A stretch of DNA of 64,000 nucleotides, from NCBI RefSeq assembly GCF_000174355.1, contig NZ_ACIS01000002.1:310001-374000 (forward strand). The letters run 5' to 3'. The translations under genes were made by a program, and so were the position numbers. Under the pieces are notes generated by a model, which did not search any database, was not told the origin of the DNA, and worked only from the letters and a program-made list of their open reading frames with translations. This document shows positions 8,331 through 29,063 of this stretch, piece after piece (position 1 is the first letter of the stretch; each line of letters starts with the position of its first letter). The DNA is from Pseudogulbenkiania ferrooxidans 2002. GTDB taxonomy: Bacteria > Pseudomonadota > Gammaproteobacteria > Burkholderiales > Chromobacteriaceae.

Positions 8331-9323
8331 ATGAAGCGCCTGATCACCTCGCTGGCCATCGCCGCCGCCTTTAGCGCAACCGCCCCGGCCTTTGCCAGCG
8401 CCCCCATCGTCATCAAGTTCAGCCACGTCGTCGCACCCGACACGCCCAAAGGCCAGGCTGCCGAGTACTTCAAGAAGTTGGCCGAAGAACGCACCAAGGG
8501 CCGGGTCAAGGTCGTCATCTATCCAAACAGCCAGCTGTACAAGGACAAGGAAGAGCTGGAAGCGCTGCAACTGGGCGCGGTGCAGATGCTGGCGCCGACC
8601 ACCAGCAAATTCGGTCCGATGGGACTGAAGGAATTCGAGGTCTTCGACCTGCCCTATCTCTTCATGAACGAAGACCAGGTGCACAAAGTGACGCGCGGCC
8701 CGGTAGGACAGGCCCTGCTGAAAAAACTCGAACCCCGCGGGCTCAAAGGGCTGGCGTTCTGGGACAACGGTTTTCGCGTGTTCAGCGCCAACAGGCCGGT
8801 ACGCACACCGCAGGACATCAAGGGCCTGAAGATCCGCATCAACTCGTCCAAGGTGAACACCGCCATCGTGCAGTCGGTCGGCGCCCTGCCCCAGACCATG
8901 GCGTTGTCCGAGGTCTACCAGGCCTTGCAGACCGGCGTGGTGGACGGCGCCGACGGCAACATTTCCAATCTGTACACCCAGAAGCAGTTCGAGGTGCAGA
9001 AATACATGACCAATACCCGCCACTCCTATAGCGGCTACGCCGTGGTGGTGAACAAGAAGTTCTGGGACGGCCTGCCCGGGGACATTCGCACCACGCTGGA
9101 AGGGGCGATGAAGGACGCCTCCGAATACAACGACCAGATGGCCGAGAAAGACACCACCGCCGCCCTGAACGCCATCAAGGCTTCGGGCAAGACGCAAATC
9201 TACGAGCCCACCGCGGCCGAGAAAGCCGCCTGGGTGAAGGCGATGCAGCCGGTTCAGAACGAGATGGCCGCGCGCATCGGCACCGATACCGTCAAAGCCA
9301 TCCACACCGCTCTTGCCAAGTAA
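8331..9323 (+). CDS. dctP: TRAP transporter solute-binding protein, DctP family (orphan)
   Basis: This 330-residue periplasmic receptor of a TRAP transporter has a Sec signal peptide (KR, hydrophobic core, cleavage after AFA at residue 22). The mature part has DctP features: IKFSHVVAPDTPKGQAAEYF, VFSANRPVRTPQDIKGLKIR and the EVYQALQTGVVDGADGN segment. TRAP receptors bind C4-dicarboxylates or other carboxylates and deliver them to DctQM in a sodium-driven process. The Shine-Dalgarno AAGGAGAG precedes the ATG. No dctQ or dctM gene is adjacent; the only membrane pair in the window is at 44975-47034. A terminator follows. The ligand cannot be told from sequence. Confidence 0.9.
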   Translation: MKRLITSLAIAAAFSATAPAFASAPIVIKFSHVVAPDTPKGQAAEYFKKLAEERTKGRVKVVIYPNSQLYKDKEELEALQLGAVQMLAPTTSKFGPMGLKEFEVFDLPYLFMNEDQVHKVTRGPVGQALLKKLEPRGLKGLAFWDNGFRVFSANRPVRTPQDIKGLKIRINSSKVNTAIVQSVGALPQTMALSEVYQALQTGVVDGADGNISNLYTQKQFEVQKYMTNTRHSYSGYAVVVNKKFWDGLPGDIRTTLEGAMKDASEYNDQMAEKDTTAALNAIKASGKTQIYEPTAAEKAAWVKAMQPVQNEMAARIGTDTVKAIHTALAK

Positions 9324-9346
9324 ACCGATACCACCGCGACGAACAT

Positions 9347-9376
9347 CGGGCTCCCACCGACAAGGGGAGCCCGGTG
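9347..9376 (+). terminator. Terminator after dctP
   Basis: A 9-bp stem CGGGCTCCC / GGGAGCCCG is followed by a short T-rich stretch (GTGTCTTCT), 24 bases past the dctP stop. Confidence 0.65.
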
Positions 9377-9511
9377 TCTTCTCCCCCCGTTGGCCGAAGT
9401 GGCCTACCCCAGCAGCCATCTCCGAGTTCATCGCCATCTGTCAGCGCGATCACCATAGCCAACTGGTCGCGCACCGCCGTTGCAGCCAACCGGGCAGGAG
9501 CCGGCCTGCGC

Positions 9512-10447
9512 TTACAGGGACAAAGGCGTGGCCGCCAGCGTCTTGACGATCAGGGCATCGTTGATGAAGTCCCCCTGCGAGAGCTTCTCGATCCACCACT
9601 GCACGCCAAGCCCGGCATCGCCGGTATTCCAGGCAGCAAAGAACTGCTTGAGCGGGCGCGGCTCTTTCACTTCCTTGACCTTGAGCTTACCCAGATTGGC
9701 GCAGTGCTGAACCAGGCAGCCCGGTAAAAAGCCGCAGCCGAGCCCGGCCAGTACGGCTTCCAGCTTCGCCTCGAGATTGGGCACCAGCAGGAAATCCTGG
9801 CCGATTTGCAGATCGAGCGGGCGTAATAATCGTTGCCGCGACGTATCCTGGATTTCGACCAGGCGATACTGCCCGATCACCGAGCGGTCGAGCGGCTCCA
9901 CGGCATCGGCGAGCGGATGCCCGGGGGCAACGGCAAAGGCGGACTGCACCTGGCCGATGGCACAGCTCGAGAAACCGGGCAGATTGGGCGCGTGATCCAG
10001 CGCACCGATGGCGAAATCCGCCCTGCCGTCCAGCAGTGCCTCCCAAGGCCCGCCCGACACCTCGTGGCTGAACAGCAGGCGGGTTTGTGAGTTTTCCCCG
10101 TAAAAGGTCGTGATATACGGCAGCAAGATGCGAAACGGCAGGATGACGTCCACGGCGATGCGCAGTTCGCTCTCCCAGCCGGCTTCGATTTTCTTGGCGC
10201 GCCTCTCCAGCGCGATCGCCCCGCGCAGCAGGCGCCGCCCGTCTTCCAGCACGGCCTGCCCGGTGGGCGTCAGTTTGGCCTTGAGGCCGGTACGGTCGAA
10301 CAAGGTGACGCCCAGGTCTTCTTCCAGCTTGCCGATCATGTAGCTGATCGAGGACGGCACCTTGAACAAGGCTTCCCCCGCCGCGGCAAAGGAGCCGTGC
10401 CGGTCGATCGCATCCAGCACTTCCAGCGCTTCCAGACTCAGTTTCAT
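9512..10447 (-). CDS. LysR-family transcriptional regulator
   Basis: This 311-residue LysR regulator has its HTH at about residues 3-60 (LEALEVLDAIDRHGSFAAAG, SSISYMIGKLEEDLGVTLFD). The C-terminal domain includes the QTRLLFSHEVSGGPWEALLD and ALDHAPNLPG segments seen in YhaJ/DhcR-like members. The ATG at 10447 (MKLSLEAL) starts exactly at the HTH; the longer in-frame read adds unrelated sequence. It is divergent from the hydrolase-amidohydrolase pair (225-base gap) and so probably controls it. Confidence 0.88.
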   Translation of the reverse strand: MKLSLEALEVLDAIDRHGSFAAAGEALFKVPSSISYMIGKLEEDLGVTLFDRTGLKAKLTPTGQAVLEDGRRLLRGAIALERRAKKIEAGWESELRIAVDVILPFRILLPYITTFYGENSQTRLLFSHEVSGGPWEALLDGRADFAIGALDHAPNLPGFSSCAIGQVQSAFAVAPGHPLADAVEPLDRSVIGQYRLVEIQDTSRQRLLRPLDLQIGQDFLLVPNLEAKLEAVLAGLGCGFLPGCLVQHCANLGKLKVKEVKEPRPLKQFFAAWNTGDAGLGVQWWIEKLSQGDFINDALIVKTLAATPLSL

Positions 10448-21594: not shown

Positions 21595-22206
21595 CTAGTC
21601 TTTGGCAATCCCGGTAAAAATCATGGTACGCATGTGCGCCACGATGTCGTCGTCGCTGTAATGCCCGTAGTCTTTCATGTAGTCAACGGCGGGGTCGCAA
21701 GTGCGCGAGTAGTAGGCATAGAGGATGACGTCGGTCGGTAGATCGTCGCGGATCTCGCCCGCCGCCTTTGACTTGTCCACCATGCCCTGCAATTGCTTGT
21801 GCAATTGGTAGACGCGCGTTACGTAGCGGATGTTGCGGGTCAGCATCGCCCGCACCTGCGGGCTGCTGGACGGCAGAAACGGCAGCCCGCCTTGCAGCCT
21901 GACGCGTAGCGCCCACTCCAGCAGGCTGCCCAGCCTTTCCTTGCCGCTCATGCCGGCGTCCAGACCGTCCAGATACTCCAGCGCGCCATCGAGCAGGCGG
22001 ATCATCACCTCGGTGGCGAGGTCTTCTTTCGATTTGAAATGCTTGTACAGGCTGGGCTTGGAGATGCCGGCCTCGCCAGCCACGTCGTCCATGGTCATCA
22101 GGTCGAAGCCCTTGCTGGCCAACAGCTTGGTGGTGGCGTCGAGCACGGCCTGTTCGCGCAGTTTGAACGCCTGATCCTTGAAGCTGAGCTTGCTTAAAAT
22201 ACTCAT
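21595..22206 (-). CDS. TetR-family regulator of the lipid/stress cluster
   Basis: This 203-residue TetR repressor has its HTH at about residues 18-62: AVLDATTKLLASKGFDLMTM, then VAGEAGISKPSLYKHFKSKE. The C-terminal ligand domain is variable. It is divergent from the FAD oxidoreductase operon. A 12-bp palindrome lies at 22220-22231, 14 bases upstream of its start, so it probably represses itself and the cluster. The ligand is unknown. Confidence 0.9.
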   Translation of the reverse strand: MSILSKLSFKDQAFKLREQAVLDATTKLLASKGFDLMTMDDVAGEAGISKPSLYKHFKSKEDLATEVMIRLLDGALEYLDGLDAGMSGKERLGSLLEWALRVRLQGGLPFLPSSSPQVRAMLTRNIRYVTRVYQLHKQLQGMVDKSKAAGEIRDDLPTDVILYAYYSRTCDPAVDYMKDYGHYSDDDIVAHMRTMIFTGIAKD

Positions 22207-22219
22207 GAGTACTGCCTTT

Positions 22220-22231
22220 TACTAATTAGTA
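22220..22231. promoter_or_regulatory. Palindromic operator between tetR and the oxidoreductase operon
   Basis: TACTAATTAGTA is a perfect 12-bp palindrome in the divergent promoter region. It fits half-site spacing used by TetR-family proteins. A second palindrome, ACTCATGAGT, overlaps the tetR start codon (22201-22210). Confidence 0.5.
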
Positions 22232-22321
22232 GCTTTTTTTCCAAAGCGGTTATATCCTGACTATAAGCACCACGCCACACCGTGCCAAGCAGTTTCCGCA
22301 GCAGACGAATCCACTACGGGA

Positions 22322-23620
22322 GTGAAGGTGAAAGCAGATCCTGTCGAACGTCAGCGCGTCGCCGTCATCGGCGCCGGCATTGCCGGCCTGGCCAGCGCCT
22401 GGCTGCTGGCGGCCAAGCATGATGTCACGCTGTTCGAGGCGGCGGACTACCCTGGCGGCCATACCAATACGGTCGACCTCAAGCTCGACGGGCATGAGGT
22501 CGCGGTGGATACCGGGTTTCTGGTCTTCAACGAGCGCACCTATCCCAATCTGATCGCCCTGTTCGCCGAGCTTGGCGTGCCCTCTTGCAGCACCGAGATG
22601 TCTTTCAGCGTCTCGCTGGACCAGGGCCGCGACGAATGGGCCGGCAGCAATCTGGATACGGTTTTCGCCCAGCGCGGCAAACTGCTGTCCCCGGCTTTTC
22701 ATGGCATGTTGTACGACATCCTGCGGTTCAACGGCGCGGCCCCGCGCCTCTTGGAAACGGCCGAGCGTCAGCGGCTCACGCTGGGCGAATTGTTACGGCT
22801 GGAAGGCTTCGGCGCTCGCTTTCGCGACCACTACCTGGTGCCGATGGCCGCCGCTATCTGGTCCAGCCCCAGCAACGAGATACTTGATTTCCCCGCCGCT
22901 ACCTTCCTGCGCTTCTGCATGAACCACGGCCTGCTGCAAATCCGCCAGCGCCCGCGCTGGTTCACCGTGCCCGGCGGCGCGCGCCAGTACGTGCACAAGC
23001 TGCTGGCTCGCATCACTGATCTGCGTCTGTGCACGCCTGTCGAGGCGGTGCGGCGAGACAACCACGGCGTCACCCTCAGCAGCCGTTTCGGCGATGAACG
23101 CTTCGACAGCGTGATTTTCTCCACCCACGCGCCACAGACGCTGGCGATGCTGGCGGACGCCAGCGCGGAGGAGCGCCGCGTGCTGGAGGCGGTCCGCTAC
23201 CAGACCAATACCGCTGTCTTGCACGGCGATGCCGCCCTGCTGCCGAGACGGCGCAAGGTGTGGTCGGCCTGGAATTTTCTGGCGGACAGCGGGCAATCCG
23301 AGCAGCGCGCCGTCTGCGTCAGCTATCTGCTCAACACCTTGCAGCCCTTGCCGGTCGCATCGCCGGTCATCGTCACCCTTAACCCGGTACGCGACCCGGA
23401 ACGCGCGCTGGAATACGCCCGCTTCATCTACGAACACCCCTTGTTCGACAAGGCCGCCGTCGAGGCGCAGGCCCGCCTCCCGGCGCTGCAGGGGAGCCGG
23501 CGCAGCTGGTTCGCCGGCGCCTGGACAGGCTACGGTTTCCACGAGGACGGCTTGAAATCGGCATTGCGCGTCGCGCGCGATTTCGTCGCGCTGCCGGCCT
23601 GGGCGAGGTTGGCCGAATGA
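22322..23620 (+). CDS. FAD-dependent amine-oxidase-like oxidoreductase
   Basis: This flavoprotein of about 432 residues has an N-terminal Rossmann motif, VAVIGAGIAGLASAWLLA, and the substrate-domain signature YPGGHTNTV. It resembles proteins annotated as NAD/FAD-binding amine oxidase family that sit next to DUF1365 and CFA-synthase-like genes in many Proteobacteria, where a role in modifying unsaturated fatty acyl chains or in photo-oxidative stress is suspected. GTG at 22322 is the longest start; GTG 22328, with GGAG just upstream, is equally likely. It overlaps DUF1365 by 4 bases. Confidence 0.85.
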   Translation: MKVKADPVERQRVAVIGAGIAGLASAWLLAAKHDVTLFEAADYPGGHTNTVDLKLDGHEVAVDTGFLVFNERTYPNLIALFAELGVPSCSTEMSFSVSLDQGRDEWAGSNLDTVFAQRGKLLSPAFHGMLYDILRFNGAAPRLLETAERQRLTLGELLRLEGFGARFRDHYLVPMAAAIWSSPSNEILDFPAATFLRFCMNHGLLQIRQRPRWFTVPGGARQYVHKLLARITDLRLCTPVEAVRRDNHGVTLSSRFGDERFDSVIFSTHAPQTLAMLADASAEERRVLEAVRYQTNTAVLHGDAALLPRRRKVWSAWNFLADSGQSEQRAVCVSYLLNTLQPLPVASPVIVTLNPVRDPERALEYARFIYEHPLFDKAAVEAQARLPALQGSRRSWFAGAWTGYGFHEDGLKSALRVARDFVALPAWARLAE

Positions 23621-24393
23621 GCGACGCCTACCTGATCAAGGGCGTGGTGATGCACCAGCGCTTGCGCCCCGCCCGCCATCGCTTCCTCTACCCGGTGTTC
23701 GCCGTGCGCCTGCGCCTGTCGGCTCTCGATCGTCTTGGCAACGCCTGGTTCGGGGTGGACCGGCGGCGGCCGATGTCGGTGCGCACCAAGGATTACGGCC
23801 CGCGCGACGGCTCGCCCCTTCTGCCCTGGATCCGCCAACAGTTGGCCGAAGCGGGCTTGCCGCACGACGGCGAGGTCTGGCTGCAGACCTTTCCCCGGCT
23901 GTTCGGCTACGCCTTCAACCCGGTGAGTTTCTGGTACTGCCACGATGCGGCCGGCCAGCTGGTGGCCGTGCTCGCAGACGTCAACAACACCTTCGGCGAG
24001 CATCACGCCTACCTGCTGGCCAACAAGGCGGGGGAGCCGATCACGGCGGGCACGAGGCTCACCTGCCGCAAGCAGCTGCATGTTTCACCCTTCTGCCAGG
24101 TGGAAGGCCACTACCGTTTCCGGCTTGCCGAGAAGGCCGACCGCATGCTGATGCGTATCGACTACCACGACACGCAAGGCCTTCTGCTGAACACCAGCAT
24201 TTCCGGCCGCATGACGCCGCTGACGTCGACGACCGCCCTGGCCGCCCTGCTGCGGCAACCGCTGCTGACCTTCGCCATCATCAGCCGCATTCACTGGCAG
24301 GCATGGCGGCTGTGGCGGAAGAAAGTGCCTTTCTTCGGCAAACCCCGGCCCCCCGCCACCCGCCTGACTCACGGAGAGGAGTGTCAACCATGA
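23617..24393 (+). CDS. DUF1365 family protein
   Basis: This 258-residue protein has the DUF1365 hallmarks: an opening KGVVMHQRLRPARHRFLYPV, the motif FPRLFGYAFNPVSFWYCHD, EVNNTFGEHHAYLL-like VNNTFGEHH, and KQLHVSPFCQVEGHYRF. The biochemical role is not established; the family co-occurs with the flanking oxidoreductase and CFA-type methyltransferase. It is coupled to both by 4-base overlaps. Confidence 0.88.
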   Translation: MSDAYLIKGVVMHQRLRPARHRFLYPVFAVRLRLSALDRLGNAWFGVDRRRPMSVRTKDYGPRDGSPLLPWIRQQLAEAGLPHDGEVWLQTFPRLFGYAFNPVSFWYCHDAAGQLVAVLADVNNTFGEHHAYLLANKAGEPITAGTRLTCRKQLHVSPFCQVEGHYRFRLAEKADRMLMRIDYHDTQGLLLNTSISGRMTPLTSTTALAALLRQPLLTFAIISRIHWQAWRLWRKKVPFFGKPRPPATRLTHGEECQP

Positions 24394-25598
24394 GCCTATC
24401 CCGCACCCTTGGCGCCCCCTGTTCACCACTGCCCGTTATCGCCAGGATCTTTCTTTCCCGGTTGAAACGGCTGGAACACGGCTGCCTGCGCCTCATCACG
24501 CCGGACGGATCGGCGCTGTGGTTCGGCAACCCCGGCGAAATGCCGGAAGCGGAGCTGACCGTGCGGGATTGGTCGGCCTGCCGCACGCTGCTGCTGGCGG
24601 GCGACATCGGCTTTGCCGAAGCCTACCGCGACGGCCTGCTCGACTCGCCCAACCTCACCGCGCTGCTACGCCTCGCCGTGCGCAACGAGGCGGCGCTGGG
24701 GCCCGCCACGTCCGGCAGCCTGCCGGCGCGGGCCTGGTACTGGCTCAAGCACCGCCTGCGCCGCAACAGCCGCGCGGGCAGCCGGCGTAACGTCCACGCC
24801 CACTACGATCTGGGCAACCCTTTCTACCAGCTCTGGCTCGACCCGAGCTGGACCTACTCCAGCGCCTGGTTCGACGGCCACTACGAGCAGCCGCTCTCGC
24901 TGGCGCAGGCCGCCAAGTACCAGCGCATCTGCGACGTGCTGGGCCTGCGCCCCGGCATGCGGGTGCTGGAAATCGGCTGCGGCTGGGGCGGCTTCGCCGA
25001 ACACGCCGCGCGCCAGGGCATCGCGGTACATGGCGTGACCATTTCCAACGCGCAGCTGGATTTCGCCCGACGGCGGCTGGCGGGCAATGCCTTGACCCAC
25101 CTCGAGTGGCGCGACTATCGCGACCTGGACGGCCGCTACGACGCCATCGTATCGATCGAAATGTTCGAGGCGGTGGGCGAAGCCTACTGGCAGGACTACT
25201 TCCGCAAAGTGCGCAGCCTCCTGAAGCCCGGCGCCAAGGCCCTGATCCAGAGCATCACCATTGCCGAAAACCGTTTCCAGCGTTACCGCAGCGGCAGCGA
25301 TTTCATCCAGGAATTCATCTTCCCCGGCGGCATGTTGCCCAGTTGCACCGTCTTTGAAGCACAGGCGCGCCAAGCGGGCCTGGCCACCCATGACCGGCTG
25401 GATTTCGGCCCCGACTACGCGGAAACCCTGCGCCGCTGGCGGCAAGCGTTCGAAGGCGCGCTGGAGCCGGTGCGCCGCTTGGGGTTCGATGAGGCCTTCA
25501 TCCGGCTGTGGCGGCTCTACCTGTGCTACTGCGAAGCCGGCTTCGACGAAGGCCGCATCGGCGTCTCGCAGTTCGTGTTGAAGGAGGCCCAGCCATGA
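24390..25598 (+). CDS. Cyclopropane-fatty-acyl-phospholipid synthase family methyltransferase
   Basis: This 402-residue SAM-dependent methyltransferase is of the CFA-synthase family. The SAM-binding block VLEIGCGWGGFAEHAARQGI is clear, preceded by HYDLGNPFYQLWLDPSWTYS and followed by YDAIVSIEMFEAVGE and FIFPGGMLPS. Such enzymes transfer a methyl carbon to double bonds of membrane phospholipids, giving cyclopropane, methyl-branched or related chains. The neighbouring flavoprotein suggests that the product may be oxidised further. It overlaps both neighbours by 4 bases. Confidence 0.9.
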   Translation: MSLSRTLGAPCSPLPVIARIFLSRLKRLEHGCLRLITPDGSALWFGNPGEMPEAELTVRDWSACRTLLLAGDIGFAEAYRDGLLDSPNLTALLRLAVRNEAALGPATSGSLPARAWYWLKHRLRRNSRAGSRRNVHAHYDLGNPFYQLWLDPSWTYSSAWFDGHYEQPLSLAQAAKYQRICDVLGLRPGMRVLEIGCGWGGFAEHAARQGIAVHGVTISNAQLDFARRRLAGNALTHLEWRDYRDLDGRYDAIVSIEMFEAVGEAYWQDYFRKVRSLLKPGAKALIQSITIAENRFQRYRSGSDFIQEFIFPGGMLPSCTVFEAQARQAGLATHDRLDFGPDYAETLRRWRQAFEGALEPVRRLGFDEAFIRLWRLYLCYCEAGFDEGRIGVSQFVLKEAQP

Positions 25599-26125
25599 GC
25601 CATCGATTACCGCGTCTGATACTGGCGACGCTGGCCTTGCTGACCGGCTGCGGCACCCCCAGCGTGCAGGCGTACCGCGACAACACGCCGCGCCTCGACC
25701 TGTACCAGTTCTTTGGCGGCCACACCCGGGCCTGGGGCATGTTCCGCGACCGCAAGGGCCAGCTGATCAAGCGCTTCACGGTGGACATCGACGGCCGTCG
25801 CGAAGGCGACGTCCTGATCCTTGAAGAGCGTTTCCTGTACGCCGACGGCACAAGACAACAACGCAACTGGCGGCTGGAGCCGAAAGGCGACGGCAAATGG
25901 CGTGGCACCGCGGCGGATGTGGTCGGCGAGGCCGAGGGCGAAGTCGCCGGCAACGCCCTGCACTGGCGCTACAACTTGCGGCTGCCGGTGGATGGCCGCG
26001 AGTGGACCGTGCATTTCGACGACTGGATGTTCCTGCTGGACGATCACGCCATGCTCAACAGCGCCCGCATGAGCAAGTTCGGCTTCGGGCTTGGCGAGGT
26101 CAGCCTGTTCTTCCGCAAGGAGTGA
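25595..26125 (+). CDS. DUF3833 family lipoprotein
   Basis: This 176-residue lipoprotein has a signal peptide ending in LLTGC (lipidated Cys19). The body carries DUF3833 features: FGGHTRAWGMFRDRKGQLIK and VHFDDWMFLLDDHAMLNSAR. The family is a regular partner of CFA-like and DUF1365 genes; its function is unknown, possibly a lipid-binding envelope protein. It sits 3 bases before the SDR gene. Confidence 0.87.
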   Translation: MSHRLPRLILATLALLTGCGTPSVQAYRDNTPRLDLYQFFGGHTRAWGMFRDRKGQLIKRFTVDIDGRREGDVLILEERFLYADGTRQQRNWRLEPKGDGKWRGTAADVVGEAEGEVAGNALHWRYNLRLPVDGREWTVHFDDWMFLLDDHAMLNSARMSKFGFGLGEVSLFFRKE

Positions 26126-26128
26126 GCC

Positions 26129-26911
26129 ATGCCGCTCGCGCCCATCAATCCCCCGATCCGTGACTGGCGCCGTCAACGGGTGTGGATCGTCGGCGCCTCC
26201 AGCGGCATCGGCGCGGCGCTGTCCCGCCTGCTGCTGGACAAGGGCGCGGAAGTGGTCTTGTCCGCCCGCCGCCAGGCCCAGCTGATGCAGGTGGCCCATG
26301 CCCACCCGCGCGCCACCGTGCTGCCGCTGGATGTCACGGACCCGCAATCCTGGCGCGAGGGCTGGTCGCGATGGCAGGACCAGCAGCGCTTGCCGGACCT
26401 AGTGGTGTTCTGCGCCGCCGACTACCGGCCGGAGCGCTGCTGGGAGCTGCAGCACGAGCGCGTTCGGCAGACCCTCGACACCAACCTGGCGGGGGTGTAC
26501 TTCGGGCTGGAAACCATCCTGCCCGCGCTGATGGCGCGCCAGTCCGGCGGCATCGCGCTGGTGGCCAGCGTGGCGGGCTATGTCGGTCTACCCGGCGCCA
26601 GCGTCTACGGCCCGAGCAAGGCCGCGCTGATCAACCTGGCCGAATTGCTGCACGCCGAACTGCGCTGCCACGGCATCCCTGTCTACCTCATCAACCCCGG
26701 CTTCGTGACCACCCGGCTCACCGCCATGAACGACTTCCCGATGCCCGCCATCATGAGTGCCGACGACGCCGCGCGGTGCATAGTGCGCGGACTGGAGCGC
26801 GGCCATTTCGAAATCCACTTTCCTCGCAGGTTTACGCTATGGATCAAGCTGATCGCCATGCTGCCCTATCGCCTGAGATTGCCGCTGCTGCGCCACCTGG
26901 CCCGAACCTGA
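26129..26911 (+). CDS. Short-chain dehydrogenase/reductase
   Basis: This 260-residue SDR has the cofactor motif GASSGIG at 22-28, an NNAG-like LDTNLAGVYFG, VASVAGYVGLPGASVYGPSK with the catalytic Ser-Tyr-Lys, and a PG motif (INPGFVTT). The basic, hydrophobic C-terminus (LWIKLIAMLPYRLRLPLLRH) may lie on the membrane. Its position within the lipid cluster suggests an acyl or lipid-derived carbonyl as substrate. Confidence 0.88.
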   Translation: MPLAPINPPIRDWRRQRVWIVGASSGIGAALSRLLLDKGAEVVLSARRQAQLMQVAHAHPRATVLPLDVTDPQSWREGWSRWQDQQRLPDLVVFCAADYRPERCWELQHERVRQTLDTNLAGVYFGLETILPALMARQSGGIALVASVAGYVGLPGASVYGPSKAALINLAELLHAELRCHGIPVYLINPGFVTTRLTAMNDFPMPAIMSADDAARCIVRGLERGHFEIHFPRRFTLWIKLIAMLPYRLRLPLLRHLART

Positions 26912-27347
26912 GAGCGCGGCTGGCCGAATTGGCCGACTGGTATGCCCATCTGAGCCCGGTCACGCTGGATGAGGCATCGACCGTTTTTACGCCGCGTCGG
27001 CCTGCTTCAAGGACCCGTTCAACACGGTGCAGAGCCGCGACGGCATACACGATGTCTTCCGGCATATGTTCAACGTGCTGGAACAGCCGGTGTTCATCCT
27101 CCGCGAGCAATTGCTGGACGGCAGCCAGGCTTTCCTGACCTGGGACTTCCGCTTCCGCCGCCGCGGCAAGGCCTATCTCTTGCATGGCGGCAGCCATCTA
27201 CGCTTCGACTCTCGCGGCAAAGTGGTAGCGCACCGGGACTACTGGGATTCCGCCGAAGAGTTGCTGCACAAGCTGCCGCTGATCGGCCCGCCCTTGCGCC
27301 TGTTGCGGCGCCTGCTGTCGGTGCATGACGAAGGCTGGCGCGCATGA
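26839..27347 (+). pseudogene. NTF2-like (SnoaL-type) protein, split by a frameshift
   Basis: The N-terminal half reads in one frame (RARLAELADWYAHLSPVTLD, then E). The rest reads in another (IDRFYAASACFKDPFNTVQS, then RHMFNVLEQPVF and QAFLTWDFRF to the stop at 27347). Together they make a normal NTF2-fold protein of the type that follows the SDR in related clusters. The second frame has a stop at 26970-26972, so the frame change must fall at about 26973-26988; loss of one base near 26975 would restore DEAIDRFYA. This is either a real mutation or a sequencing error. The start is unclear; ATG 26839 overlaps the SDR gene. Confidence 0.75.
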
Positions 27348-27523
27348 AGCCATCCTTCAAGGGCAACAAGTCCGCCCTTCCCGCCAAGCCGTGCGCCGGC
27401 TGCGGCCACCCCATGAGCTGGCGGCGCAAATGGGCGCGTTGCTGGGATGAGGTGAAGTTTTGTTCCGAACGCTGCCGCCAGCGGCGCCAAGCCCATGACC
27501 GCCTTGATCTACCGCCGCCATGA
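27344..27523 (+). CDS. DUF2256 small zinc-ribbon-like protein (59 aa)
   Basis: This short basic protein has two Cys pairs: KPCAGCGHPMSWRRKWARCW, then VKFCSERCRQRR. That is the DUF2256 pattern, probably a small zinc-binding module. It overlaps the preceding gene's stop by 4 bases. In other bacteria DUF2256 genes often sit by photolyase or cryptochrome genes; none is present here. Confidence 0.85.
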   Translation: MKPSFKGNKSALPAKPCAGCGHPMSWRRKWARCWDEVKFCSERCRQRRQAHDRLDLPPP

Positions 27524-27666
27524 CGACACGCGCGCCGTCTTCGGCCAACCTTGCGCGATGCCTGCGCCAGCACATCCAGCGGCGGAGGGGGATCGGCAGC
27601 GCCTCGCTGCGGGCCGGCCTGTCGCCGCATACTGCAACGCATCGAAACCTTGTGAGTCATCAATAG
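27520..27666 (+). CDS. Possible 48-aa hypothetical ORF
   Basis: A short ORF (MTTRAPSSANLARCLRQHIQ and so on) starts inside the DUF2256 stop codon with the same ATGA overlap used throughout this operon and ends 11 bases before the lipocalin gene. It is Arg-rich and matches no family I recognise. It may be a remnant or non-coding spacer; it also contains a copy of the CTTCGGCCAAC motif (27539-27549). Confidence 0.25.
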   Translation: MTTRAPSSANLARCLRQHIQRRRGIGSASLRAGLSPHTATHRNLVSHQ

Positions 27667-27677
27667 AGGAAGACACC

Positions 27678-28220
27678 ATGCGACGCTCCCGACTGCAACG
27701 CCTCATGCTCCTTGGCGGCAGCCTGCTGCTGGCGGCCTGCTCCACCTTGCCGCCGCCCGGCATCCAGCCGGTCAGCGGCTTCGAGCTGCAACGCTACAGC
27801 GGCAAGTGGTATGAAATCGCCCGGCTGGAGCACCGCTTCGAACGCGGGCTCAGCGACGTCAGCGCCAGCTACGCGCCGCAGGCGGACGGCAGCGTCAGCG
27901 TGATCAATCGCGGCTTCGATCCCGCCGCCGGGCGCTGGAAACAGGCGGAAGGCCGCGCGCTGTTCAACGGCGACCCGCACCGCGCCTCGCTGAAGGTGTC
28001 GTTCTTCGGCCCCTTCTACGGCGGCTATCACGTGGTGGTGCTGGACCCGGACTACCGCTGGGCCATGGTGGCCGGCAACGACCGCTCCTACTTGTGGATT
28101 CTGGCGCGCGACAAGCAACTGCCCGATGACGTCACCGCCCGCCTGCTTGAAAAGGCGCGGCAACTGGGTTTCGACACCGGCAAACTGATCCGGGTCGGCC
28201 AGACCCGCAGCGACGGCTGA
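27678..28220 (+). CDS. blc: Outer-membrane lipocalin Blc
   Basis: This 180-residue bacterial lipocalin has a lipoprotein signal (LLLAAC, Cys21). It carries the lipocalin GxW motif FELQRYSGKWYEIARLEHRF, and YGGYHVVVLDPDYRWAMVAG for the second conserved region. Blc binds fatty acids or lysophospholipids in the envelope. Its place in the operon supports a role in lipid repair or turnover. GAGGAAG precedes the ATG. Confidence 0.92.
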   Translation: MRRSRLQRLMLLGGSLLLAACSTLPPPGIQPVSGFELQRYSGKWYEIARLEHRFERGLSDVSASYAPQADGSVSVINRGFDPAAGRWKQAEGRALFNGDPHRASLKVSFFGPFYGGYHVVVLDPDYRWAMVAGNDRSYLWILARDKQLPDDVTARLLEKARQLGFDTGKLIRVGQTRSDG

Positions 28221-28228
28221 GGCGCGCC

Positions 28229-28453
28229 ATGACGATACGCCTCAACCCGCGCAAGCTGCTGCTGAGCAAGTGGACGGCCCTGGCGCCGCAGAACAAGGAA
28301 AAGCACTTCATCGTGGTGCGCGTGCTGGAGCCGGAACACCCCGACGCACCGATTACCGAAGTGGAACTGGAAGCGGTCTACAGCCGACGCAGCCGCATCA
28401 TTCCCTGGAAAACGCTGACCGACGCCACCCAGTGGCGGCAAGGCTGGCATTAA
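28229..28453 (+). CDS. TIGR02450 family Trp-rich protein
   Basis: This 74-residue protein has the family pattern: NPRKLLLSKWTALAPQNKEK, HFIVV, then VELEAVYSRRSRIIPWKTLT and W residues near the end (QWRQGWH). The function is unknown. It is the last gene of the cluster, 8 bases after blc. Confidence 0.88.
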   Translation: MTIRLNPRKLLLSKWTALAPQNKEKHFIVVRVLEPEHPDAPITEVELEAVYSRRSRIIPWKTLTDATQWRQGWH

Positions 28454-28568: not shown

Positions 28569-28610
28569 TTCGACCACGCCCGGCCTGCACTACAATGAAC
28601 CTTGGTTCAT
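28569..28610 (+). promoter_or_regulatory. Promoter with an overlapping palindromic operator, HIT gene
   Basis: A candidate sigma-70 promoter TTCGAC (28569-28574), 16-base spacer, TACAAT (28591-28596) precedes the HIT gene. The perfect inverted repeat ATGAACC-TT-GGTTCAT (28595-28610) overlaps the -10 end and the start region, where a repressor would block transcription. No regulator gene is adjacent. Confidence 0.5.
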
Positions 28611-28625
28611 CGAACGGAAAGTGCC

Positions 28626-29063
28626 ATGTCTTACGACTCCAACAACATCTTTGCCCAAATCCTGCGTGGCCAAGCCCCATGCATCAAAGTTTTCGAAGAC
28701 CAGATGACGCTCGTGTTCATGGACATCATGCCTCAGGCAGACGGCCATCTCCTCGTTATCCCCAAAGAACCCGCATCGCAGATTTTCGAGCTGTCCGACG
28801 ATGCGGCGGCGGCCTGCATGCTGACCGCACGCAAGGCGGCCATCGCGGTCAGGGCGGCCCTGAACCCTCCCGGCATGATCCTGGCCCAGGCGAACGGCAG
28901 CGCGGCCGGCCAGACCGTGCCGCACTTTCACATCCACGTGATTCCGAGACACAGCGGGGAATTCCTCGCTCCGCATGCAGCACGGCGGGAAGACACGGAA
29001 AAGCTGAAGGAGCTTGCCAAGCGCATCATTGCCGCTTGGCCCGAACTCGACGAGAGCAATTGA
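28626..29063 (+). CDS. HIT-family nucleotide hydrolase/transferase
   Basis: This 145-residue histidine-triad protein has the catalytic triad in HFHIHVIPR (His100, His102, His104). Earlier family blocks are DQMTLVFMDIMPQADGHLLV and NPPGMILAQANGSAAGQTVP. HIT proteins hydrolyse adenylated or phosphoramidate nucleotides. ATG 28626 is used; a longer read adds eight residues without support. A terminator follows. Part of this gene with its downstream DNA and terminator recurs, decayed, at 37690-38070. Confidence 0.9.
   Translation: MSYDSNNIFAQILRGQAPCIKVFEDQMTLVFMDIMPQADGHLLVIPKEPASQIFELSDDAAAACMLTARKAAIAVRAALNPPGMILAQANGSAAGQTVPHFHIHVIPRHSGEFLAPHAARREDTEKLKELAKRIIAAWPELDESN

Follow-up and report, generated by a model that had tools for sequence, protein, structure and literature searches.

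A predicted furan-fatty-acid operon with a divergent tetR gene and a putative operator pair in Pseudogulbenkiania ferrooxidans 2002

The window considered here is a stretch of 64,000 nucleotides from Pseudogulbenkiania ferrooxidans 2002 (contig NZ_ACIS01000002.1, positions 310,001 to 374,000). At positions 21,595 to 28,453 it carries a gene cluster that starts with a flavin adenine dinucleotide (FAD)-dependent oxidoreductase, a DUF1365 protein and a Cfa-like methyltransferase, and is preceded by a divergent tetR gene. The cluster sits on contig 19 of the 4.2-Mb genome. On the evidence of its enzyme core and of two palindromes between tetR and the first enzyme gene, it probably encodes the known UfaM-UfaD-UfaO pathway as a ufa operon under the local control of its own TetR-family protein.

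Gene content and the enzyme core

The gene list of the cluster (Table 1) was confirmed by Pfam and NCBIfam profile matches to the window's proteins and agrees with a preliminary description made from the sequence, which had named TetR, FAD oxidoreductase, DUF1365, CFA-like, DUF3833, short-chain dehydrogenase/reductase (SDR), NTF2-like, DUF2256, Blc and TIGR02450 genes. That description had almost all of them joined by short overlaps, which is the case for ufaD/DUF1365, DUF1365/methyltransferase, methyltransferase/DUF3833 and NTF2/DUF2256 (4 bp each), but gaps of 3 bp (DUF3833/SDR), 154 bp (DUF2256/Blc) and 8 bp (Blc/TIGR02450) occur as well.

Table 1. Features of the cluster, with positions in the window
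Feature	Position	Strand	Basis
tetR (TetR-A), TetR-family regulator, divergent from operon	21595..22206	-	PF00440, E 1.7e-16
Putative operator O1, perfect palindrome TACTCATGAGTA, holds the tetR ATG	22200..22211	.	Palindrome scan
Putative operator O2, perfect palindrome TACTAATTAGTA	22220..22231	.	Palindrome scan
Predicted sigma70-like tetR promoter, TTGGCA-17-TATAGT, 10/12 consensus	22260..22288	-	0.1 expected in shuffles
ufaD-like FAD-dependent oxidoreductase (amine-oxidase type), predicted fatty acyl desaturase	22322..23620	+	Pfam
ufaO-like DUF1365 protein, predicted fatty acyl monooxygenase	23617..24393	+	PF07103, E 1.9e-80
ufaM-like S-adenosylmethionine-dependent methyltransferase, predicted to act on fatty acyl chains, not canonical Cfa	24390..25598	+	PF02353 (CMAS)
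DUF3833 protein (lipoprotein in the preliminary description)	25595..26125	+	PF12915
SDR	26129..26911	+	PF00106
NTF2-like (SnoaL_2) gene, frameshifted; start 26839 picked by eye	26839..27347	+	Piece 26979-27347 matches SnoaL_2
DUF2256 protein	27344..27523	+	PF10013
DPRP (photolyase-related) gene remnant	about 27552..27652	+	DNA and protein similarity to L002/L003
Blc-type lipocalin	27678..28220	+	PF08212; NF007786, 224.9 bits (cut-off 267)
TIGR02450/DUF2389 Trp-rich protein	28229..28453	+	Pfam, NCBIfam

The first three enzyme genes (FAD protein, DUF1365 protein, CFA-like methyltransferase) have the domains and the order of ufaD-ufaO-ufaM, and the enzymology is thus of an already known kind. According to an extract of PMC7380195 (this and the other articles cited here are represented by extracts), UfaM, a Cfa-like methylase, methylates cis-vaccenate chains, after which UfaD, a FAD protein, desaturates them and UfaO, which carries DUF1365, forms the furan with O2; the ufaD, ufaO and ufaM genes of Rhodopseudomonas palustris are RPA2571, RPA2570 and RPA2569. 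The core sigmaE-ChrR regulon takes in furan-fatty-acid genes (PMC6852236), and in Halomonas the ufa genes are consecutive (PMC12089945). In two alphaproteobacterial loci among those compared the same FAD-DUF1365-methyltransferase run has an annotated sigma factor less than 5 kb away, together with ChrR in L108 and with an anti-sigma factor in L109. UfaD-, UfaO- and UfaM-type proteins are encoded together in the window, and the cluster is very probably a furan-fatty-acid operon with furan fatty acids as its product, in agreement with the pathway suggested in the preliminary description.

Regarding the UfaO-like DUF1365 protein, the AlphaFold model has a mean predicted local distance difference test (pLDDT) score of 94.6 and gave no Foldseek match at E≤0.001. 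Its best VIA match was to a nitrobindin-type beta-barrel (Z 8.1, root-mean-square deviation 4.1, 134 aligned residues), which is weak and near the level of a common arrangement. Such a barrel might accommodate an acyl chain or a haem group.

In many related ufa operons (e.g., L107, 10232-12078) a chalcone-isomerase-family gene and a major facilitator superfamily (MFS) gene lie between the methyltransferase and DUF3833 genes; neither is present in the window. Following TIGR02450, a HIT-type frame (28602-29063, by eye) is found in the window and a NAD/FAD-type oxidoreductase-like frame (8574-9551, by eye) in L002, the locus of the nearest relative. On a Burkholderia anthina plasmid (L110, 951-9809) the ufa core shares one stretch with two lipocalins, a sigma and an anti-sigma factor, and a DUF1295 gene that is accompanied by a second methyltransferase.

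The putative operators and their distribution

The preliminary description had reported a palindrome in the regulatory region; O2 is that palindrome, but it is not single, O1 having been overlooked. The two sites are perfect palindromes of the same pattern, 20 bp apart from start to start. Exact matches to TACTNATNAGTA occur three times in the 4.2-Mb genome, two of them being O1 and O2.

The distribution of this arrangement was determined in a census of ufa clusters that drew on the best 80 of 597 confirmed candidate loci, on 60 regions out of 194 genomes with a match, for the most part the closest to the window, and on 7 plasmid records of 50 listed (121 matching). After removal of six records without a ufaD match and three duplicates from 148 records, 139 clusters remained. 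The regulators found near them were LitR (50), the TetR type of the window (TetR-A, 39), ECF-ChrR (an extracytoplasmic function sigma factor with ChrR, 8) and a sister TetR (TetR-B, 5); in 37 none was found, a class that includes loci cut by contig ends, and LitR matches below 140 bits were not counted. TetR-A is therefore common to 39 of the 139 clusters and is not peculiar to this genome. To set TetR against sigmaE-ChrR alone, as was done earlier, is too narrow a contrast, LitR being the commonest regulator; a TetR gene with a conserved operator does stand at the regulatory position.

Scored with up to two mismatches per site and a spacing of 19-21 bp, the operator pair was present in 31 of the 39 TetR-A loci (spacing 20 in 23, 21 in seven and 19 in one) and in none of the 100 other loci (0/50 LitR, 0/8 ECF-ChrR, 0/5 TetR-B, 0/37 none found); one of 1950 shuffled regions contained it. 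TetR-B loci have a motif of their own, TGACTnnnnAGTCA, which was found with at most one mismatch in all five and elsewhere in 0/39 TetR-A, 2/50 LitR, 0/8 ECF-ChrR and 1/37 none-found loci. The element ACTnnnnAGT is common to both motifs. A promoter of the form TTGGCA-17-TATA[GT]T lies 28 bp from O2 in all ten members of the window's clade that were scanned (L115, which has no operator pair, was left out) and in none of 20 other rows.

Distances between TetR-A proteins correlate with those between Ufa cores (Mantel r 0.861, 39 loci, p≤0.001), and the regulator labels follow the Ufa-core tree, which requires 17 changes where shuffled labels require 71.5 on average; the clustering of TetR-B is weak (28 of 500 shuffles were as low). 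In an 87-row IQ-TREE tree of the Ufa core, with SH-aLRT support only, a single starred set of 50 rows takes in all 39 of TetR-A; it also has three ECF-ChrR rows (including Burkholderia) and eight none-found rows (six Burkholderiaceae by name). Because ECF-ChrR rows lie within this set, a change between TetR and ECF-ChrR, in either direction, probably took place inside it. At E≤1e-25 the TetR was matched in two of 369 genomes of the class, the second match not being beside ufaD.

Regarding a wider regulon, the genome scan placed exact TetR motifs at one regulatory place only. The third exact match (C20:227879) lies inside a 351-aa frame, glycosyltransferase-like by eye, and was rejected as a regulatory site. 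Sites with one mismatch were not in excess (16 places, against 18 for a reversed control). Twelve sites outside the cluster were placed relative to reading frames, eight inside frames and four between them (one more had no locus and one overlaps another); the intergenic ones lie before a fadH-like gene (by eye), before a TetR-like frame (L185), in L183 and in L184. Before the fadH-like gene a perfect 16-bp palindrome, TACTTACTAGTAAGTA, is located between promoter-like boxes (by eye; G000:C14:232718-232733, L179 and L186). It is kept in six of the eight genomes that have the fadH-like gene (nine searched), including the congener G002, in which no ufaM-type match was found, and it is therefore probably the site of another regulator.

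Control of the operon and competing explanations

The TetR of the window has an N-terminal TetR helix-turn-helix, its gene is divergent from the operon and the sites are palindromic, features of TetR-family autoregulation. O1 and O2 lie in the predicted tetR leader, so that autoregulation is the best-supported step and may be regarded as well supported by sequence. For the ufa operon we infer repression. TetR dimers would bind O1 and O2, which are separated by about two helical turns in the region between tetR and ufaD. With O1 over the tetR start codon and both sites in the leader, TetR would repress its own gene, and with O2 on the ufaD side it would simultaneously shut off or tune the ufa operon. 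TetR would be freed from the DNA by an inducer, for which a compound derived from lipids or an electrophile is the likeliest candidate. UfaM would then methylate cis-vaccenoyl chains, UfaD would desaturate them and UfaO would insert oxygen, the product being a methylated furan fatty acid.

Several points weigh against this interpretation. The promoter scan of the window region found no ufaD-directed promoter, nor does O2 cover a recognisable one. Eight of the 39 TetR-A loci are without the operator pair; seven of these retain at least one site and L128 has none. On the 87-row tree the TetR-A label needs four changes, at least three of them forced by starred branches, and the TetR-ufa pairing was thus gained or lost more than once. 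The link to the ufa pathway is drawn from domains, gene order and neighbours, and the binding, the sign of ufaD control, the inducer and the product are predictions from sequence.

A further point is that the NTF2-like gene is frameshifted and a DPRP gene persists as a remnant, by which the distal, photolyase-type part of the operon appears to be decaying. The NTF2-like gene, a member of the preliminary gene list, is broken near 26975-26979: the frame 26838-27347 holds three stop codons and is open over 26979-27347. All nine close relatives tested give one tblastn piece from query residue 7-13, and the match in the window starts only at residue 28; a sequencing error at the frameshift is also conceivable. 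The DPRP remnant has 79.7% DNA identity to L003 over 79 columns, and a stretch of 20 aa is 65% identical to the protein of L002 (E 6e-5); a further short piece resembles the C-terminus of the L002 protein at an E of 0.57 only. The gene is intact in L002-L004. The clade of the window has ten further TetR-A members, of which eight show a match in the stretch fetched and two, L115 and L117, show none. No DPRP match was found in the window's own genome, by a search without a positive-control genome.

The strongest competitor is that TetR activates the ufa operon or is dual, with O2 as an activator site and both sites serving for autorepression of tetR. In its favour, the operators lie in the tetR leader and cover no recognisable ufaD promoter, and PvrA, an activator of fatty-acid genes, is among the nearest folds of the window TetR (Z 16.8). 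Most TetR proteins are repressors, however, and the structural matches are no guide here, with many TetR structures at Z 15-17. Activation is considered unlikely, though it is the alternative to be taken most seriously.

As to what a repressing TetR would sense, its model (mean pLDDT 89.0) gave fold matches that single out no ligand class. A cysteine, C170, stands in an R-x-C-D-P motif in 43 of the 44 cluster-borne TetR proteins of both classes, the remaining one being cut short, and is the sole cysteine in 25 of the 44. The motif is also present in a TetR of 41% identity whose gene has no ufa cluster next to it, which counts against a ufa-specific link and makes C170 a lead only. It is a long shot that the subfamily senses membrane photo-oxidation by modification of C170 with an electrophile from oxidised furan fatty acids or dienes. 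If this were true, the operon's product would report damage straight to the regulator, in place of ChrR proteolysis and LitR photoreception.

A different product would result if the methyltransferase were a second cyclopropane synthase and the cluster yielded ordinary cyclopropane fatty acids only. The protein is a strong match to the CMAS family, among solved structures its best relatives are those of Cfa enzymes, and cyclic fatty acids were detected alongside the 11-methyloctadec-12-enoate formed by Halomonas UfaM (extract of PMC12089945). It scores far below the cut-offs of three Cfa models, however, with 237.7 (cut-off 600), 236.7 (400) and 214.1 (650). Residues were mapped by alignment to E. 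coli Cfa 6bqc, in which the chain numbers are, by our own count, one ahead of the native ones. At the equivalents of C139, H240 and H266, active-site residues of E. coli Cfa that belong to its bicarbonate site, the window protein has S, A and Q. Among 138 relatives the C139 equivalent is S or A in 137, the H240 equivalent A in all and the H266 equivalent Q in 137. The genome's own Cfa (contig 11), about 35% identical to the window protein, keeps C, H and H (by eye), as do second Cfa-like proteins in L108 and L110. The methyltransferase is on this sequence evidence not an ordinary Cfa, and cyclopropane fatty acids as sole product are very improbable. Its closest named relatives are from Aquitalea (L002, 78%; L003, 74%); two other genomes of the genus, one of them 84% complete, have no close copy (best 34-35%).

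The preliminary description had noted that no sigma factor or ChrR accompanies the cluster; in the genome TIGR02451 (ChrR) has no match, the sensitivity of the model for betaproteobacterial ChrR not having been tested. In the family, TIGR02451 gave weak matches in 16 of 61 genomes and none above the cut-off; of 14 control genomes Caulobacter matched. A weak PF12973 cupin match in the genome was rejected as ChrR, nothing ECF- or ChrR-like being present in the surrounding 3.2 kb, and a TGATCC that might pass for a sigmaE site falls inside the tetR coding sequence (by eye) and was set aside as coding. That LitR or ECF-ChrR elsewhere in the genome rules the operon, with TetR as a bystander, is the least probable explanation and highly implausible: the same operon neighbours these regulators in other lineages and genes including ufaM are light-induced through LitR in Pseudomonas (extract of PMC9758184), but neither TIGR02451 nor a LitR/CarH-type MerR query that matches two of seven genomes searched (G499 and G667) found anything in this genome, and the operator pair of the census occurs only with TetR-A.

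Related systems and significance

The nearest known systems are UfaM, UfaD and UfaO of Rhodobacter sphaeroides and R. palustris (extract of PMC7380195), with FAD, DUF1365 and Cfa-like proteins as in the window. Two further genes of the Rhodobacter operon, RSP1088 (186 aa) and RSP1087 (245 aa), could, by size alone, match the DUF3833 and SDR proteins; RSP1089 (402 aa), presumably the MFS gene of the related operons, has no counterpart in the window. The ufaM gene of R. sphaeroides lies at a great distance from ufaD and ufaO (extract of PMC12089945), whereas the three are adjacent in the window, and control is by sigmaE-ChrR there and probably by TetR here, where Blc, DUF2256 and TIGR02450 genes follow downstream. 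In Pseudomonas putida and P. mendocina the light-inducible genes under LitR resemble the window in that a single region holds ufaM together with genes for a FAD oxidoreductase, an SDR and a photolyase (extract of PMC9758184); this set is under a class II LitR, whereas in the genome of the window no LitR was found and the DPRP gene is a remnant. Regarding the regulator itself, the TetR-type regulators FadR of Bacillus subtilis (Z 15.5) and PvrA of P. aeruginosa, which respond to acyl-CoA or lipids, have the TetR fold of the window protein, which is only 15-18% identical to them, and this fold is common to most TetR proteins.

Among the literature matches listed, none dealt with the control of ufa genes by a TetR protein and none named both ufaM and TetR. 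The pathway is known; the newer part is the type of regulator, a TetR with an operator pair, which is common among relatives. Furan fatty acids have been proposed to act in the singlet oxygen response, and the control of the ufa pathway so far described is by sigmaE-ChrR and LitR. A simple local regulator with a defined operator would offer a tractable handle on the signal behind furan-fatty-acid synthesis, and one enzyme core appears to be paired with different sensors in different lineages.

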